64,000 bases of DNA, taken from assembly GCA_000827205.1 (NCBI GenBank), contig KN832558.1, positions 1,845,839 to 1,909,838 on the forward strand. Reading direction: 5' to 3'. The notes beneath the pieces are model-generated. The model saw nothing but the letters and a program-made list of their open reading frames with translations, searched no databases and was not told the DNA's origin. Positions 25,030 to 48,416 of the stretch are shown here, in pieces. The number at the start of each line of letters is the position of its first letter. Within the stretch, counting starts at the first letter, position 1. A program made the translations under genes and the position numbers. This DNA comes from Plicaturopsis crispa FD-325 SS-3. Its lineage: Eukaryota; Basidiomycota; Agaricomycetes; Amylocorticiales; Amylocorticiaceae.

Positions 25030-27420
25030 ATGTCTAGTGCTACCAAATCTGCAGGCCCGAAGGTCGTTGTAATCGGTGCAGGGTTCGTTCTGTCCCCCGT
25101 TGGTAGCTTGTTTCCGTAGATTTGAAAGTTGCGGTCGCAGAATCGGTGGACTGTCGTTCGGCATCGCCATGAAGCGGCAGCTGCAGTACGAAAATTTTAC
25201 TGTGAGTGATATACAGTGCATCTCAACTGCGGGCGCTGATATGCTTCATCTACTAGATATATGAGCGGGCAGGCGAAGTCGGCGGAACTTGGCGAGTGAG
25301 TAGTTTGTTGACTCGCATCTAGATATACCTGTTGACGATTGAGTATAGGATAACACGTACCCGGTACGCAGGTCAAACCTCACTAGCCACCGAATTTGTA
25401 GTGATACATGAGAGACGGTTAGGGCTGCGCGTCCGATGTCCCAATCCACTTTTTCTGTCTTTCGACGGACTTGAACCCCGACTGGAACAAGACCCATGGA
25501 TCTCAGCCGGAGATACAGGCATATTGGAAAGGTCTCGCTGCCAAATACGACCTTTACAAACACACCGTCTTCCGCACCCAGGTCATATCTGCTGATTGGA
25601 ATATGGAGACCCAACAGTATCACATCGTTTTAGAAGACGTTGACTCCGGAGTCAAGTCGGAGACGACGGCTAACGTTGTAGTGAGCGCTCTGGGCATACT
25701 GGAGCAACCGAGGTACCCCGCCGACATGAAAGGGATCCACTCGTTCAAAGGAGACATATTTCACTCCGCTCGCTGGAACCACAACGTCAAGCTCAGTGGC
25801 AAACGAGTTGCAGTCGTAGGAAGTGGATGTTCTGCGTTCGTTACTATGCAGACTGTCGTGACATTTAACATCTGTTCTGACCTGACTATTATACCCTGCA
25901 GCGCTCAATTCATCCCCATTATCGCTCAAGATCCAACTGTTCAAATTACAAACTTCATTCGGACGCCAAATTGGTATATAGACCGGGTGAATGATGGACT
26001 TCTTTTCCCTTCAAGAATTATCATTGACTACCTTCAGGAGCGCACATTCTGGTCCCCCAGGGCAAAGTGGGTATTTCGAAACATTCCACTCGTTATGAAG
26101 GCCTATCGGAATATCATCATGCTTGGGGTACGGCAATTACTACACCCTTGTATGTCCAGAGACTCATGACTGCTTCAGGGAGAAGTTGCATATGGGTTTT
26201 TCCAAATCAGCGCGTTAAGTGGGATAGCGAAAAACGTGAAAGATATATCTTCTCGAGTAGTGCTGCACTGACTCAGTCTATACATTCTAGGCACTCACGC
26301 GTTATATGCTTAAGATCGCACCCGAGAAATATCGAGAGCAACTTGTGCCAAGTTATTGTGCGGGTCTTGAACTGTGATCAAATCTGCTCTTATTGAAATA
26401 TGGACATAGCCCCGGGATGCAGACGAGTAATCATCGATACTGAATATCTCGAGAGTCTCAGTCGCCCAAATGTTTCGGCAAACTTCGACGGGATAAATGA
26501 GGTCGTGGAGGACGGTATCATCACTGGCAAGGGTACGTCACAGATGAGGACTGGTGGAAAAACGTTTCCTTATTTTCATCTTCAGGAGAAAAGATTGCCT
26601 TCGATGTGATTATCCTAGCCACTGGATATGAAACTGTGCGTTGTCTCTACTAGAGATATGTCAGTGGAGCGTTTACCTCTTGCCTTGTCGCCCAGCAATC
26701 GTACCCGCTCGCTGTACGGGGCGTAGGCGGACAAACCATCCAGGAATATTACGACTCGCAGGGAGGCCCTACGGCTTACATTGGTACGACCCTGCCTGGC
26801 TTTCCAAACTTCTACCTCATTGGCGGTGAGCATATAATCAAATGGACTCGTTTGTCATACATAGCTGACACCATTCAGGTCCGAATACGCTGACGGGGCA
26901 CACGTCCGTCATCTTTACCGAGGAATGCCAGGTTCGTCTTGGCGACCCGCTATCCGCCTTCACCATGGCTCATGTGTATGACATGTAGATCAACTATGCG
27001 CTCTCGCTGATATCCCCAGTTATCAACGAGAAGGTCTCCTCCTTCGAGGTTAAGCAAGAGCCCACCGACGCGTACAACGTGAAAATCCAAAGACGCCTCT
27101 CGACAACCGTGTACTCGGAGTGTTTCTCGTGGTACCGCTACGGGGGCAACGGAAAGCTGACAAGCCCTTTCCCGGGGCCTGTCACAATGTTTTGGTGGTA
27201 TCTGCGCACTCCCGTGTGGAGTCACTACAAAGCCGTCGGTGCAGAGAAATGGTTGCAGGAACAAAAGCGGAAAAAATTGGGTGATGTCCTAGGCTTGGCC
27301 ATGGCTGTGTCTGGCCTGGTGTTGGCTGTCAAGTACGGGGCTTCTGTGCCCGGTTCTGCGTTTTTGTTGGACAACTTGGTTTGCATTTATCCATTGACTA
27401 TGACTGGAAGTCGGCGCTGA
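25030..27420 (+). CDS. Flavin monooxygenase of the Baeyer-Villiger type
   Basis: FAD- and NADPH-dependent oxygenase that probably oxidises a ketone or related carbonyl; substrate unknown. The start at 25030 sits in a GCCACC context. First Rossmann motif VVVIGAGIGGL is split by an intron; then [28 protein letters not shown] and PEIQAYW. The BVMO-type fingerprint reads [12 protein letters not shown] (FxGxxxHxxxW), followed by the second Rossmann motif [10 protein letters not shown] and the ATG motif VIILATGYE. About a dozen introns, all of which can be joined in frame, including a 51-nt intron (25987-26037) with no stop. The C-terminal exon ends with a hydrophobic stretch, [17 protein letters not shown], that may be a membrane anchor. 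No biosynthetic partner genes adjoin it. Confidence 0.88.
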
Positions 27421-30698: not shown

Positions 30699-31359
30699 AT
30701 GAAGTTTGCGTTTGCCCCGCTGGCCTCGCTGGCCTTCCTCGCGAGCAGTGTTATTGCCGCTCCCGCTGCTGGTGCTAGCTTAACGATCAATACCCCGTAC
30801 GCATCATTCCTTTGTGGTTTGCCATTTGTGGCTCTGACTCTTCTGCAGCTCCAGCGCCGTCGAGTGCCAGCCGACGCTGCTCTCGTGGACCGGGGGTACC
30901 GGTGAGCATCGCCCACGCCCTCGATAGGTATCTCTTGTTCTAATGGCGCCATTTTCTTAGCTCCCTACTTTTTGGTTTGTGAATGACCTCGTGCAAGAGT
31001 CTCTTATGCTAACTATAAGTAATCTCACATTATCACGTCGATAGAGGTAAGTCTGGCACTACCTCGTTCCGCGTTTCGTACTCACTATCTGCTTTCGCAT
31101 TTAGTGTACACCCAGGTAACAGTCCATCGAGCGCCCCTCTCGAAGATCTTGGCGAGCAGAAGGGTACATCCTACACCTGGAAGACCGACGTAGCCTCAGG
31201 CACGTCCGTCGGATTGACGCTCAAGGATAGTACCGGAGCCATTGCACAGACAGCGGCATTCACTATCCAGCAAGGCTGTGAGTTATCATATTTAATTGCC
31301 TCGTCTTAGCAGTCAATAATCTCGCTCTCCTTACAGCAACGAGCTGTGTTGGAAAGTAA
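30699..31359 (+). CDS. Small secreted KRE9/KNH1-like wall protein
   Basis: 120 aa: signal peptide MKFAFAPLASLAFLASSVIA, then a single domain of the Ser/Thr-rich yeast Kre9/Knh1 N-terminal type (beta-sandwich, linked to beta-1,6-glucan assembly). Blocks seen are LTINTPSSAVECQPTLLSWTG, GGTAPYFL, VHPGNSPSSAPL, GTSYTWKTDVASGTSV and LKDSTGAIAQTAAFTIQQG, ending STSCVGK. Exons: 30699-30796, 30849-30901, 30961-30974 (14 nt), 31045-31046 (2 nt), 31105-31277 and 31337-31359, total 363 nt. Frame closes only if the two-base exon AG is included, giving PYFL-S-VHPG, which is what relatives have. No GPI signal is apparent. Many Agaricomycete paralogues exist; role unproven. Confidence 0.85.
31045..31046 (+). 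other. Two-nucleotide microexon (AG) in the KNH1-like gene
   Basis: The left intron (30975-31044) starts GTTTGT, has a TATGCTAAC branch site near 31008 and ends CGATAG. The right intron (31047-31104) starts with perfect GTAAGT and ends TTTAG. The two bases AG between them supply the first two positions of a Ser codon. Direct joining of the flanking exons gives an early stop. Confidence 0.7.
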
Positions 31360-35692: not shown

Positions 35693-35922
35693 GATAACGG
35701 CTCATCACACAAATCCTCCAGGCTTCAATCTCATAGCCAGGTGTGTATGCGTCTTCTTTAATTCACATCCGTTAACGTGTAGGTTAACCATGTGAGGTCT
35801 GATGCTATTCATGGAATTCAATGCTCAATAAAATGTACAATAGTCCGTTGGGTGACCGCAATGATACACCATGCATGCTCCTTTCCTTATTCCTTCCCGT
35901 AACTCTATCTGAATCGATATCC

Positions 35923-38900
35923 TCAGTTGGCCAAATCTCGAGCGAAGTGGAAGAAGTCCACAGAGGAGCCATGTACACCATATTTGTAGATCTTGGATTC
36001 GGAGAAGAAAAACTATGAGCGTAGTGCACCGGAAAGGAGTGAACGTTACTCACGAAATGCGACGCAACCCAACTAGAGAATAGGGCACGCTGGTAAGGCT
36101 CCGGGAGCCTTTCCAGCAATGTGTCAAGTCCGACCTGGTCGACGAGCGTCTTGGGAATCGCGCGCCCAATGACGCCCCTGCGACTCGGCACATCATCGAA
36201 TAGATCAGAGCTCTCTAGTTCGGCCTGTAGGTCGTTGAGCGTGATAGAGAGCTCGTCCGAGATCGTCGTGCGCGGTTTAGCACCCTGGAGACGAGTATGT
36301 TCGCGCCAGAGGCATTGGAACTCTGCTGCAGCGTTCTCCGTGATCTTTTTTTGCACATCCTTGACGTAACTCTGGTAGAAAGCAGACGGCTTCCCTTCCT
36401 TGAACACCATCAAGTCGATGTACTCCTGGGTCGAAAGAGCGAGACCGGCCAGGACTTCGAGAGACGAGCTGGTTACTCCACCTTCACGGTTCACAATATC
36501 AGCGTTGCTCGAATGCAATGTGCAGGTATATGTCCTACCTTTGTTTGTGCTTGAATCTTTGAAGAGGACAACCTTTCGTTTCTCGAGGTGCAGACGCGCT
36601 TGCTGGGTCAGGAAAAGGTTTGCACCTTCTACAACGTACTTGAAGTGAGGCTTTCCTTCAGAGTCGATCAATGCCGCTACGTTCGAGATATTGACAGCCT
36701 CCGGTCTACGGTGGGTTAAGGGTCAGGGACATTCTAGAGCGCATGCTATATGGAAAGCTGACCGTCCACCACAAGGCACAAATAGATCAGCCTTGAACCG
36801 AAGATGAGCGCCATTTCGGAAATCAGTGCCGTCAGGGATGACCTCGCCCGCTAAAAGTCCAAGTATGAGGATATGCACCTCATGCGCAATTGAGTTGAAA
36901 ACTCACAAGGCAGCTTGACGTCCTGCTCCTCAACTTTGACCAGATATCCCGCCTTACTCAGCTTCGATTTGTCGAAGTTGCTGACAGGAACCCGCAGTTT
37001 CGCAAGGCGAATGAGCTCCTCCCTATCAAGACCAGCAGGGTCGGCCAGAACACCGCTACCGTCTATAATGGCAACAGTTTTGTCGGAACTGAGAAGAATC
37101 TCATCTACAAGAAAAAGCAGTAAGTATCTGTTTTGTGTGACACACCATCTTCGCCTTACTGGAGCCCAAGTCGCCATCTGCAAAAATAATGAGGGGAGGT
37201 ACATGGCAATGGTTGACTCGATAACATACCAGGACCACCGGTCTGTACTTTCGTGATGTCCTTCTCCCGTAGACCGAGCTGTTTGTAGATGCCAAGGACA
37301 TACTGCCTGATCGACAACGAGGTCATGCCATACGTATCGTGAGGAACGCCTCCGAGGGTTTGTGCACTCTTCCCAGTGGTGAAAGACTTCCACCACGTCT
37401 CTGCTCCACGGGAACGGGCGTGGACTGTCCGCCGAGCAGGTTTCAGCAATTCGGCAAAACAAAATTTGTAGCGATGATGACTTACGAGCCGCCCAGTCCA
37501 TCATATCAGCAGTGCCCTCTGGAGAACGAAGTACGTCAATAAGTTATATTGAAATTGGTAAGTGGCCAAGAAATTACCATCTGGCCCGAAGAATAGCAAT
37601 TCAGGTTTGCCATACAAGTCGACAAGACGCTCCTTGATGCCAGGGCTTTGCCCAGGAATAAGGAGATCGATAATAGCCTGATGATGTGGGTCAATTACTG
37701 TACATAATGAGAACCTTCAATAGCTTACATCGACGTATTTCTCAAAGCACAAGCGAGGTGACGCTCCGATGCTTTTAAAGGCGCAAACGTTAGGATATGG
37801 TATGTGCGGCAAAAAGCTTGCTTAGTACTTACGAAGGCAGGATTGTGCCCTTTGCACCTCCTTCCGGGATATCTTTGTTCTTCAAAGATTGCGTCGATGC
37901 TAGACCGTAGTTCTCGTCGAAGCTAGGATATGAATCAGCCTCGTGTAACCCGAAAACTTGTGTTTCGAGACACTCACAGCATTCTCTGGTTGATAGAGTA
38001 ATTCCTAAATGGAAGGGTTCAGTAAGCCATACGTGATGCACGAAACGTCGAAATCAGCATACTCCTTGTTCCTCGACATGACAATACGGATACCGCCTCG
38101 GGCAACATCGCGGAAACGAATGTGGAATCCTCTGAACTCGTTACCGATGACGATGAACATCCCGAAAGGTTTCTGGGATCTAGTTTAGGATCTCTGTTCT
38201 CGTGAGCAAGCATTAAAACACACCTTCGGATACTCGATCTCGGGTAAGAAGTCAGGCGCAAGGCGGAATGACAGCGCGACCTTGGTCGGTTGATAGAAGT
38301 TCGTCTTGAGGACATGCCTACGGGGCGAAGGGTCTGTTAAATTCACGAGCTTCAAGAGCTGACAAACATGTTCTCAACTTGTTGAAGATCAGGAAGCTCT
38401 CAAGAACCTGCAGTTCATGCTTATTGGGAACGGCGCGACGGATTTTGTCGTACAGGTCGTCGTCCGAAAGCGGCTGAGTTGTTTTCAGGCGCTGATACGA
38501 CAAGGTTGGCCTAGGTGTTCAAGTGATCAGTCAATATGTGTAAATAGGGAATCGACAGGTCAGCGTACATAAGTTGAGACGCCTCGTCGCTAGTCGGATA
38601 GTGGATCATTGCGAAGTTCACATAGAGCAGGCGAATCTATGGTCCCTCGGTTCAGTAACCCATCAGCTCAAAAACCGGTAGCACTTACCAGTTCAGGGTG
38701 CGCATGGATGACTTGGGCTATACTTTCGCGAGTGAACGTTTCCTCCCTGAAACGGCGCTTGATGTCATTCAAGACTTCAGCGTGGGCAGGGTTTGTCTCG
38801 TCGAGAACATTCCTCAGTTGAAGATACGCCGGCCCCAGGCGATTACAGAAGTGCTGTGCGAAAATCCACCCGCAGTCTGTATATAATATCGTAAGTTATA

Positions 38901-43095: not shown

Positions 43096-45233
43096 TTAGG
43101 TCGAGGATTCCGGTGCCGGAATGCCCATCTTGAGCCGCACGGTCTCGAACGTCTTGAGCATCTTCCTCCTAGCCCCGAGAGCGGCAACGCCTTTAGCCTC
43201 CAGCGCCGCTTCATCGAGGGCGACCATGTCCTGCCACTTCATCCCCTCGAAGTTGGGCGTGTACTTGTGCAAGCGCAGCGACCTGAGCCAAGCCGGAATG
43301 TCGTTCAGGAGCTGGGGGTCAACCTCATCCTCATCCTTCTTTGCGCCGTCATTTCCACCTCTTCCATTGGAAGAGGGTGGCTTCCCACCAGGAGAGCGCC
43401 CAGGCCCCCGCTGGCTGCGGTTGCTGCCCATGCCCTGCTGACCTTGCATACCCATCCACCCCGGCTGGTTGAATCCACCCGCCGCCATTTGCGCGGCTAG
43501 GATCTGCGCATCAGGCGACATGCCCATGCCCATAGCGTTGGCCATGTTGAGCAAGTAAGGGTTGATCTGTCCCATGCCTGCGAGGCTCGCCATGTTGAGG
43601 CCGCCGCCGGGAATCCCCATCCCAAGTCCGGGACTGCCCAATCCCATGTTGAAACCGCCCATGCCTAGGCCGTTCATGCCAGCTCCGCCATCGTCACCGC
43701 CAAACCTGTTAGAAGATGTGTTGGAGAGCGCCGGGCTCCGTACCCCGTTCCAGCCGCCTCCGTTGAAGTTGCCGCCGCCGTTGGCGTTCCTCATGCCGCC
43801 AGGACCGTTGCGCTGCTGCTGTTGTCCAGCACTATGCTGCTGCTGACCACCGGAGACAAGATTTCCGTCATTGTCGTAGACACCGCCGTTCTGCCCGCTT
43901 TCCTGCGTGTTGCCCTTCGAGACGCGACGAAACTTCTTGGGGTCTTCCATGAGGGGAACACGGCTACCCGACCAATCGTTGAGCTTGGACGCAGCGGCAT
44001 CGAGATTCTGCGGGGGGTTGCGAGTGTCTTTCTGGAACATGGGTATAAGGGGCGTATTAACCATGCTGGCCCAGCTATCGCCGGGCATCGGGGACAAGGT
44101 CGACTCGCCCACTCCACCACCTGGCCTGGGAGAACCAAGAGTTCCAGAGAACTCCGTACTCTTGGGACGTGAGCCGTTGGTGGGGAGGGGATTTACGGTA
44201 ACCTCCTGTGCCGGAGAGTTGTTTTGCTCGGCGACCTGGCCAAGCTGGGAGTTCGGGCCCCATCCGTTGTTACCGACACCACCCGTAGACAGTACGGGCG
44301 CCGAAATGCGGTGAGCCGAGTTGGCAGCCTTCAGCTTCGCGCGCTGTTGGGCGAGAGTGGCTGCAGCATCTCCGCCTGGGGACGCTGCGTGGGCTGACTC
44401 GGGGGATAGGAAGTTGGGAGTGTTGGTGTCCAACGCGAGGGATTGGCGATTGGGGTTGGACGGTGCACTGAAGTTGCGTGCTGAAGGTGAACTCGGCATC
44501 GGAGACTTCAGCCCCGGTGATTTGAGATTCATGCTGGCTAACTTGGCTTCCATCTGGGTTTGCATCGAGCCTATGATGTTACGTATGAGACCCATTGCAC
44601 CTACAGATCACGAAACAGGAGCGCTCACCTCCCATGGCGGGACTAAGGAGGGCAGTCATCGGATCTGACCTCGCCATTTGTTGTAGCACAGTGATGAAGA
44701 AGCGGATTTGAACCTGAGTAGAGTGTTGGAGAAGACTGTAGAGAGCGGCTGTGCGCTCTGCTTCTGAGAGAACCTTGAACCATTGCTCGATGGCACTAAG
44801 TTCTTCTTTAAAATTAACATCCAGTGAGGCTGCGGCCATTTCTTCCTGCGATGAAAGTTAGCATATCGTGTACTCGATTGCATAGATGGTATCGGGAAAG
44901 CATTTGCTGGACGCAAGACTTACCAGCGTAGCCTCATAGTTCTGTAGGTTTTCGAACCATTGGTCTATAGCTTCGGCTACAATAGTTTGGGATCAGCCAC
45001 GGCGATCTAAGTTATAGCGTACGCTGCATACCTTCGGGTGTCTGAAACATTCCAGCACCGCCAAGTAGCTCACTAGTGGGCCTGTTGCCGTTGGAGCCGC
45101 CCCCTGGACGAGGAGAGGCCGGGGAGAGGCCTTGGCTACCACGAGAGGGACCCATGGATGCCCGCGAGTTGGCATGTTTGCCATTATCGTTGGGTTGAGG
45201 AGACGGACTGGAAGGGGGACGAAGAGTCGCCAT
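43096..45233 (-). CDS. VTS1: VTS1/Smaug-type SAM-domain RNA-binding protein
   Basis: Binds CNGG-loop (Smaug recognition) hairpins in mRNA and recruits CCR4-NOT for deadenylation. Start at 45233: [18 protein letters not shown]. After a disordered start come helical exons [19 protein letters not shown] and [39 protein letters not shown] (the conserved N-terminal Vts1 module), then a long Ser/Asn/Gly/Met-rich region and the C-terminal SAM domain: [35 protein letters not shown] and [20 protein letters not shown]. The basic ALGARRKML helix is the RNA-contacting surface in this family. It ends PAPESST. NOT2, a subunit of its usual effector complex, lies 26 kb away; I attach no meaning to that. Confidence 0.94.
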
Positions 45234-46702: not shown

Positions 46703-48416
46703 TTACTTTGGCTTCCGTCCACCCTGACGTTTCCCCTTTCCACCCCCCTTGCCACCCCACTGGATTTTCACCAGAGGCTCTTCCACCCACTGCAGACCTT
46801 TCAACCCCGCCTCCGCCCTCTCCCGCTCGCTAAGTACCCAGGCACTCCATACTCCTTCCACGCGCTTCACAGGCCTTAACTCCTCCACCCAGCTCTTCAT
46901 ATACTCCCCGCGCAGATCATAATCATGCCCCTGCTTCACCTGGTTGAACACGCGTCCCTCCCCACCACCTCGGGGGTCATTTCCAACACCCGCAACATAT
47001 TGCCAGTTGCCCCAATTCGACGAGACGTCGTAGTCGACCAGCGTGCATTCATACCATTCTGCGCCGACACGCCAGTCGATCCCGAGCCGCTGCGCCAAGA
47101 AGGACGCGACATTCTGCCGCGCGCGGTTCGACGTGTATCCCGTGAGGAACAGCTCGCGCATAGACGCGTCCACTAGCCCCATGCCCGTGCGCCCCTCGAG
47201 AAACCGGGCGATCGCGGGCTGCGCGGACGCGGGGGACTTCCACGCGCCCTCCACGCCACGGAACCCCCATAGGCGGAAAAGCCGTACGCCGAATTTGCGC
47301 GCGCAGAGACGCATGTAGTCGCGCCAGAGCAGCTCGAAGCGAATTCCGCGAGTGCCTGGGTTCTCGGCCTCCCCGAGGGCGGCGTCGATTTGGCGCGCAG
47401 TGATGCACCCGAGGGCGAGCCAGGCTGAGAATTTCGTGCTGCCGTCCGTGCCGAGCATCTCGTTGCGCGTTGCGGCGTACGATGAAGCTGCACCCGAGCT
47501 GAGCAAATGCGCGAGGCGTGCGTGTGCGTGAGAAGACCCGCCGCGAAACGGGTGCGCAGAGGCCGCGCCGGTCATTGGCATCTTTGGGGGCTGCGACAGG
47601 CCAAGAGAGGGATGCAGCGGAGCCAGAAGAGCGGTTGTAAGAGATGGGAGATCATGCGGTATCTTGAACGGAGCAGACTGGGCGGGTATGGCTGGCGGGA
47701 GGGGCGGGAGGTTGCGCACGGTTGGAAGGACGGGGCGAGCGGCGGAATGAAGGGGTTCAACCGACTTGCGGAAGGATGTGAACACGTCCGGGAGTTCTTG
47801 AGGGTTGCGAAATGGCAGATCGCGACTGGGTGGGTGGCAAACATATAAATGGTGAGTAAAGCATCATGGTCAACTGCTCGCGAAGAGGAACGCACTCGTC
47901 TACAAGATACTTTTCATCCAAGAAACGTCGAAATTCTTTCCCGGCACCTTTCGCGTATTCCTGTATATCGCGTTCTTCCTCTTTCTCCTCTTGGCCTTCC
48001 TCGTTCGTCATCCACACGCCCGCGACCTGCCCGCCTCCCAATTCAAGGCCCTCTACTATCTCGCGCACGACTTCACCTGGACGGCCTACTCGTATCTCTA
48101 GACCGCTTCCCACAGTGCCTAAAGCACTCTTAAGCTCCCACACCGACTCGGCCAAGAACGTCGCGCGGTGCGGGCCACACCGCCAGAACCCTGCCACGGG
48201 CGAACGAGCTTCGGGAAACGGCGAGCGTGCCGTCGAGCTGCGCAAGAAGCCAGACACCTCGATTTGCGCGCAGGAAAAGACATAGAGCGGCAGCAGGTGC
48301 GTGAACGGCGCGTCGGGCGAGGCAGCTGCCTTTGCGATTTCGTGCAATACAGGATTGTCGGCGAGACGGAGGTCGCGGCGCAGAAGGTAGATGAGAATAC
48401 GCGGAGGGGATGGCAT
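46703..48416 (-). CDS. Cryptochrome DASH
   Basis: Photolyase/cryptochrome-family flavoprotein; DASH members bind FAD (and MTHF) and repair CPDs in single-stranded DNA or act as blue-light receptors. Start at 48416: MPSPPRILIYLLRRDLRLADN. The codon nine bases upstream is TTG, not ATG. Exon 1 holds the N-terminal antenna domain (AGFWRCGPHRATFLAESVWE). One intron follows (donor GTGCGTT after KYLVDE), then DLPFRNPQELPDVFTSFRK, RGGSSHAHARLAHLL, TKFSAWLALGCITARQI, FELLWRDYMRLCARKFG, MRELFLTGYTSNRARQNVAS, GAEWYECTLVDYDVSSNWGN and WQYVAGVGNDPR. These are the FAD-binding blocks characteristic of DASH. The C-terminus is a basic Gly-rich tail, WGGKGGGKGKRQGGRKPK. Just two exons, unusual here. Confidence 0.95.

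Follow-up and report, generated by a model that had tools for sequence, protein, structure and literature searches.

Structure of the Locus

The window, i.e., the whole stretch of 64,000 nucleotides analysed here (G000:C5:1845839-1909838), belongs to a genome of 33.2 Mb in 49 contigs. It contains a predicted gene on the forward strand, which starts with an ATG at 30699, finishes with a TAA ending at 31359 and is divided into six exons and five introns (Table 1). The predicted exons add up to 98 + 53 + 14 + 2 + 173 + 23 = 363 nt including the stop codon, exactly the sum given in the preliminary description, and encode a protein of 120 residues, MKFAFAPLASLAFLASSVIAAPAAGASLTINTPSSAVECQPTLLSWTGGTAPYFLSVHPGNSPSSAPLEDLGEQKGTSYTWKTDVASGTSVGLTLKDSTGAIAQTAAFTIQQGSTSCVGK. 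Both the total and the 120-residue frame are reached only with the 2-nt exon.

The fourth exon consists of the dinucleotide AG, which provides the first two bases of a serine codon (AG/T; the slash marks a splice boundary throughout). It is directly flanked by the acceptor CGATAG, ending at 31044, and by the donor GTAAGT, starting at 31047, as had been claimed for this site. The predicted mRNA junction reads TTTTTG-AG-TGTACACC with the microexon and TTTTTG-TGTACACC without it.

Table 1. Exons and introns of the window gene (positions in the window).
Feature	Position	Strand	Length and characteristics
Exon 1	30699..30796	+	98 nt; start codon, hydrophobic N-terminus, phase 2 end
Intron 1	30797..30848	+	52 nt, GTACGC...CTGCAG, phase 2; place and phase common to L017 and L014
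Exon 2	30849..30901	+	53 nt; equal length in L017
Intron 2	30902..30960	+	59 nt, GTGAGC...TCTTAG, phase 1
Exon 3	30961..30974	+	14-nt microexon CTCCCTACTTTTTG; L017 counterpart CCCCGTACTTCTTG, equal length
Intron 3	30975..31044	+	70 nt, GTTTGT...CGATAG, phase 0
Exon 4	31045..31046	+	2-nt microexon AG; L017 counterpart at 876-877
Intron 4	31047..31104	+	58 nt, GTAAGT...ATTTAG, phase 2
Exon 5	31105..31277	+	173 nt; equal length in L017
Intron 5	31278..31336	+	59 nt, GTGAGT...TTACAG, phase 1
Exon 6	31337..31359	+	23 nt including TAA; protein end STSCVGK

The two introns that surround the AG exon, introns 3 and 4, each carry a complete set of splicing elements: a GT donor, a branch-site-like motif and a YAG acceptor. 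With CTNAY as the branch-site consensus, intron 3 contains CTCAC, CTAAC and CTTAT at 17, 32 and 38 nt from its end, and intron 4 contains CTCAC at 20 nt from its end. A scan of intron 5 for the same motif found none.

Elsewhere in the window, the ORF at 46703-47785 (-) strongly matches the DNA photolyase FAD-binding domain (PF03441, E 7.2e-43). The ORFs at 25471-26169 (+), 35805-36671 (-) and 43096-44595 (-) have matches to the flavin-binding monooxygenase, Glu/Leu/Phe/Val dehydrogenase and SAM domain families. In total, 4 of the 10 window ORFs scanned for families gave a match, the photolyase ORF included.

The Sister Gene

A sister gene, L017, is located on another contig (G000:C15) of the same genome. 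Its layout is GGTGGAACCC/GTGAGT...TTCCAG/CCCCGTACTTCTTG/GTTTGT...TTTTAG/AG/GTATGC...ATTTAG/CGTCCTCCCCGG, and its predicted spliced product is WSGGTPPYFLSVLPG. Exons 2 to 5 have the same lengths in both genes (53, 14, 2 and 173 nt) and introns 1 to 5 have the same phases (2, 1, 0, 2 and 1); the microexon of L017 lies in the context TTTTAG/AG/GTATGC. The 2-nt exon, the adjoining 14-nt exon and the restored PYFLSV, all proposed earlier from the window gene, are supported by the matching arrangement of L017.

Over exons 2 to 5 the two genes share 71% of their nucleotides, with 81, 86 and 45% identity at codon positions 1, 2 and 3, respectively. The NG86 estimates are a dN of 0.18 and a dS of 1.78 (dN/dS ~0.1). 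Between the two genes, the cores of introns 3 and 4 are no more alike than shuffled sequences (z -0.35 and 0.86), and the alignment of the cores of introns 1, 2 and 5 yields z values of 1.41, 1.63 and -0.20. At the sequence level, the window gene and L017 are old duplicates. Since the duplication is old and no similarity is left in introns 3 and 4, the AG exon would not be a passenger of a recent copy. Moreover, because these introns align no better than shuffles, the retained TAG/AG/GTRNG cannot be explained as residual similarity. This conservation of the AG exon rests on two paralogues from one genome of one species.

The unusual donor of intron 3, GTTTGT, is identical in the window gene (30975-30980) and in L017 (808-813), the rest of the intron having diverged, and is weak in both copies.

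The two copies have different C-terminal regions. The window gene ends just past the conserved domain (31337-31359, STSCVGK followed by the stop codon). L017 has a long Ser/Thr-rich tail at 1171-1486, with at least one further intron. Possibly, the window gene encodes a shortened form that is secreted freely.

Intron Sizes and Chance Expectation

Two more distant homologues of the same genome, L014 (GTGPYFLSLVPG) and L015 (GTGPYNLVAVP), are uninterrupted through the same motif, with no intron there. L014 and the window gene have intron 1 alone at a shared place. Introns 2 to 4 may have been gained in the lineage that led to L017 and the window gene, or the other homologues may have lost them. 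A candidate paralogue, L016 (C9; E 0.135, with a same-place match at E 0.0044), was judged too distant to be included in the alignment.

Intron sizes were compared across four hand-built gene models (the window gene, L017, L014 and L015). The 16 other introns of these models measure 50-90 nt, with a median of 59 nt, and introns 3 and 4 fall within this range both in the window gene (70 and 58 nt) and in L017 (68 and 57 nt). Read as a single intron, the same stretch would measure 130 nt in the window gene or 127 nt in L017, outside the 50-90 nt range. In the window gene, the CTNAY motif closest to the intron end is at 17 nt (intron 3) and 20 nt (intron 4), against 11 and 18 nt in L017; no such motif turned up in three of the 16 remaining family introns.

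The frequency expected by chance was estimated from 20,000 dinucleotide shuffles of each region (130 nt for the window stretch), with fixed ends and an intron of at least 45 nt on each side. The combination YAG/AG/GTRNGY arose in 4 of 20,000 shuffles for the window gene and in 1 of 20,000 for L017. When any two nucleotides were accepted between acceptor and donor, the counts were 68 and 47 of 20,000, respectively.

Genome-wide, the string YAGAGGTAAGT occurs 30 times in the 33.2 Mb, against 25 times for a reversed-pattern control; it is not clearly enriched, and enrichment as a sign of many such exons was rejected. What is special about the string is its place, not its genome-wide abundance. 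The PYFL-plus-donor pattern CCNTAYTTYYTNGTNNG has 10 matches in the genome (7 for its reversed-pattern control), and YAG-AG-GTRNG follows 50-130 nt downstream in two of them, the window gene and L017 only. One other match contains an unrelated 6-nt exon candidate.

These data bear on a rival reading, in which a single intron of 128 nt (30975-31102) would end non-canonically, two bases ahead of the final AG, and AG 31103-31104 would stay in the mRNA. This reading yields the same mRNA and protein as the microexon, so that RT-PCR cannot separate the two and would refute less than the preliminary description supposed, and the TTT/AG on which it depends (31100-31104 in the window gene) is likewise present in L017. 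However, it would be longer than any of the 16 other introns (50-90 nt), each half of the stretch has its own branch-site-like motif, and the internal YAG/AG/GTRNGY is kept in both sister genes despite being rare by chance. Furthermore, GT-TT introns have essentially no known precedent, which makes a single 128-nt intron very unlikely.

Dependence of the Reading Frame on the AG Exon

Skipping of AG in the window gene gives PYFLCTPR and a stop, four codons after PYFL, in agreement with the preliminary description, which had predicted a stop on direct joining. Retention of intron 4 gives PYFLR and an immediate stop.

The alternatives were enumerated as splice chains from the start of exon 2 to the VHPG anchor, with no more than three GT-AG introns per chain, each 45 nt or longer. 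There are 70 open GT-AG chains, 14 of which keep GG and four of which keep both GG and PYFL. In only one of these four, the chain with the AG exon, is PYFLS joined directly to VHPG; the remaining three give 17 extra residues, 20 extra residues or loss of the serine (PYFLVCN). If GC donors are also allowed, the number of open chains increases to 394, with 10 keeping GG and PYFL. The six added chains use the donors GCCCAC or GCACTA. PYFLS is then followed by VHPG in two of the 10 chains. Both of these use the AG exon, and the one among the six added chains relies on a poor donor upstream.

The enumeration also defines what would be needed if intron 4 were kept, or a longer exon used, to place 17-20 extra residues between PYFL and VHPG. 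In L017, intron 4 (878-934) is open in frame, and its retention would add 19 residues (PYFL-RYASAVMCHLQPTYIFIPFS-VLPG); in the window gene, the frame also stays open in the two GT-AG chains that insert 17 and 20 residues. Plain retention in the window gene nevertheless meets the immediate stop mentioned above. The 17-residue chain requires an AAG acceptor located just past two earlier AGs, while the 20-residue chain requires a GAG acceptor together with another donor and has no serine directly after PYFL. Since L014 and L015 also lack such an insertion, this reading is given only a slight chance of being correct.

On the predicted gene structure, exon 4 is an ultra-small coding microexon (<15 nt): its flanking introns are complete, frame and peptide need it, and its retention goes beyond chance.

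Proposed Splicing Route

The best explanation is that AG 31045-31046 is a real, frame-locking coding microexon of 2 nt, older than the duplication that separated the window gene from L017 (estimated probability about 0.88). Introns of 58-70 nt are in the size range expected for intron definition, and each of the short introns would be recognised as a unit of its own. The preliminary description placed exons of this size at the limit of exon definition, which is probably the wrong frame, given that the flanking introns are short (58-70 nt) and that 1-nt exons have been published.

In the proposed route, AG would serve both as the exonic half of the donor (AG/GTAAGT) and as the landing site of the acceptor. 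Because the dinucleotide belongs to both footprints, the two sites would not be bound at once and the introns would be removed sequentially, one after the other, in either order. If intron 3 leaves first, the donor of intron 4 would become TTGAG/GTAAGT; if intron 4 leaves first, the acceptor of intron 3 would become CGATAG/AGTGT. Within the TAG/AG acceptor, the second AG lies two bases on and forms a GAG triplet, so the first AG would be preferred and the 2 nt kept. GAG is the poorest acceptor triplet and TAG a better one, therefore use of the first AG should be favoured and inclusion of the 2 nt should dominate. Furthermore, 2 nt is not a multiple of three, and in the window gene the reading frame is cut short both when the exon is skipped and when intron 4 is retained. 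For this reason, constitutive inclusion of the AG exon is more probable than a role as a protein switch.

The same tandem arrangement could instead act as a recursive splice point. The string GATAGAG/GTAAGT, with an acceptor AG abutting a donor GT, is present in the window, and its use would break the frame: splicing to the second AG would leave an exon of 0 nt, and the resulting mRNA would be out of frame and probably degraded, with the site as a regulatory switch. In both sister genes a tandem AGAG acceptor stands directly before the donor, and the product of the second AG in the window gene (PYFLCTPR and a stop) would fit a productive/dead switch. On the other hand, the second acceptor is the poor GAG triplet, and 0-nt use as the main outcome would abolish the protein in two genes whose coding sequence is, on average, constrained (dN 0.18 versus dS 1.78). 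A recursive point as the main function is very unlikely, although the 0-nt junction could be a minor by-product. It is a tentative and rather doubtful extension of the microexon model that the 14-nt and 2-nt pair is ancient and fixed in a Kre9/KNH-related subfamily, with TAG/AG as a possible switch between a productive 2-nt and a dead 0-nt outcome.

Finally, a pseudogene or an assembly error, with an indel that broke the frame and an accidental AG exon, is scarcely credible: the window copy is short and without the Ser-rich tail of L017, as such a reading would have it, but the same 14 + 2 nt architecture occurs independently in L017, the remaining frame is unbroken across 120 codons and comparison of the two copies gives a dN/dS of ~0.1.

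Relationship of the Encoded Protein

The window protein had been described as a KNH1-like secreted protein. The distant relationship is upheld by profile comparison, while no direct Pfam match better than E 0.33 backs the name. A Pfam search with the window protein gave nothing better than PF23710 (E 0.33, rejected), and PF10342 (Kre9/KNH) did not match it at E values up to 1. PF10342 matches weakly (E 0.018) one of the four members of the family alignment A1, not the window protein. When the A1 profile was compared by hhalign with four PF10342 matches of the same genome, of which three score above the curated cut-off and one (L005/L008) below, the probability was 86.5 with an E of 4.6e-6 over 87 columns, both alignments having four rows only. 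The window protein can fairly be called a distant relative of Kre9/KNH and is probably secreted, the putative signal peptide being judged by eye.

A sequence search of the PDB with the window protein gave no significant match (best E 0.15), immunoglobulin light chains being among the ten matches listed. A scan of viral contigs with exon 5 for stray fungal contigs returned 71 pattern matches and no relative.

Comparison with Known Tiny Exons and Adjacent Introns

A close parallel is a 1-nt exon in the CYP621A gene of Fusarium, reported in 2026 with read support from SRA and, per the abstract, 20 orthologues (PMC12940212). Its authors describe it as the first such exon in a fungal gene and mention earlier finds of 2-5 bp exons in Arabidopsis, Drosophila and humans. 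As presented there, this fungal exon was likewise deduced from out-of-phase flanking exons, is located inside a conserved protein motif and sits in a 139-nt stretch resembling one long intron, as in the window gene. The intronless homologue that served as the ruler was Aspergillus clavatus CYP621B1; here, L014 and L015 play this role. The Fusarium exon differs in its size (1 nt rather than 2 nt), in belonging to an ascomycete P450 and in being supported by orthologues and reads. By comparison with that account, the window exon is retained in two diverged paralogues and adjoins a 14-nt exon.

In plants, 1-nt exons have been described in APC11 (Arabidopsis) and VPS55 (PMC4674806, PMC8831610). 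These exons are also ultra-small, have a length that is not a multiple of three and have been conserved for long periods. The GTRAGT donor of the VPS55 exon is conserved, and there are copies of APC11 that lack the introns. They differ from the AG exon in being of 1 nt, in plants, and in having been studied by RT-PCR sequencing, with GFP-fusion constructs for APC11.

Among basidiomycetes, the shortest exon given for the P450 genes of Phanerochaete chrysosporium is 6 bp (PMC1184071), and the shortest exons of the bglA genes of basidiomycete yeasts are 5 and 6 bp by cDNA comparison (PMC9142197). These genes resemble the window gene in their many short introns and tiny exons, but have a minimum of 5-6 nt against the 2 nt found here. 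Functional microexons are said in PMC11121469 to have been previously undescribed in filamentous fungi. Three apparent basidiomycete microexon reports (PMC8022950, PMC3990503 and PMC4014442) were set aside, the term denoting only a read-mapper setting in the passages that mention it. In the parts of the open-access PMC literature covered, no 2-nt exon is reported in fungi and none below 5 nt was found in basidiomycetes. As far as the open-access literature goes, no exon as small would be on record for a basidiomycete, and the AG exon would be the second of less than 3 nt in a fungus.

Stwintrons, as outlined in PMC9024468 and PMC5639578, share with this locus two adjacent short introns that resemble one long intron and are removed consecutively. 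In contrast, neither intron of the window gene interrupts a splice element of the other, both are complete at the outset, and 2 nt would be left in the mRNA. The locus was not classified as a stwintron: both introns have intact ends, and removal of everything gives PYFLCTPR and a stop.

The AG exon is a case of extreme size, well supported by paralogy, and not a new kind of system. It suggests that an exon of this kind can outlast both a gene duplication and the complete turnover of its introns. Gene finders probably miss it, and public orthologues may be truncated or mis-spliced at PYFL. With AG lying wholly inside the footprints of donor and acceptor, the gene would allow obligatory sequential splicing to be tested in a natural setting and, being compact, would also suit studies of how two introns 2 nt apart are removed.
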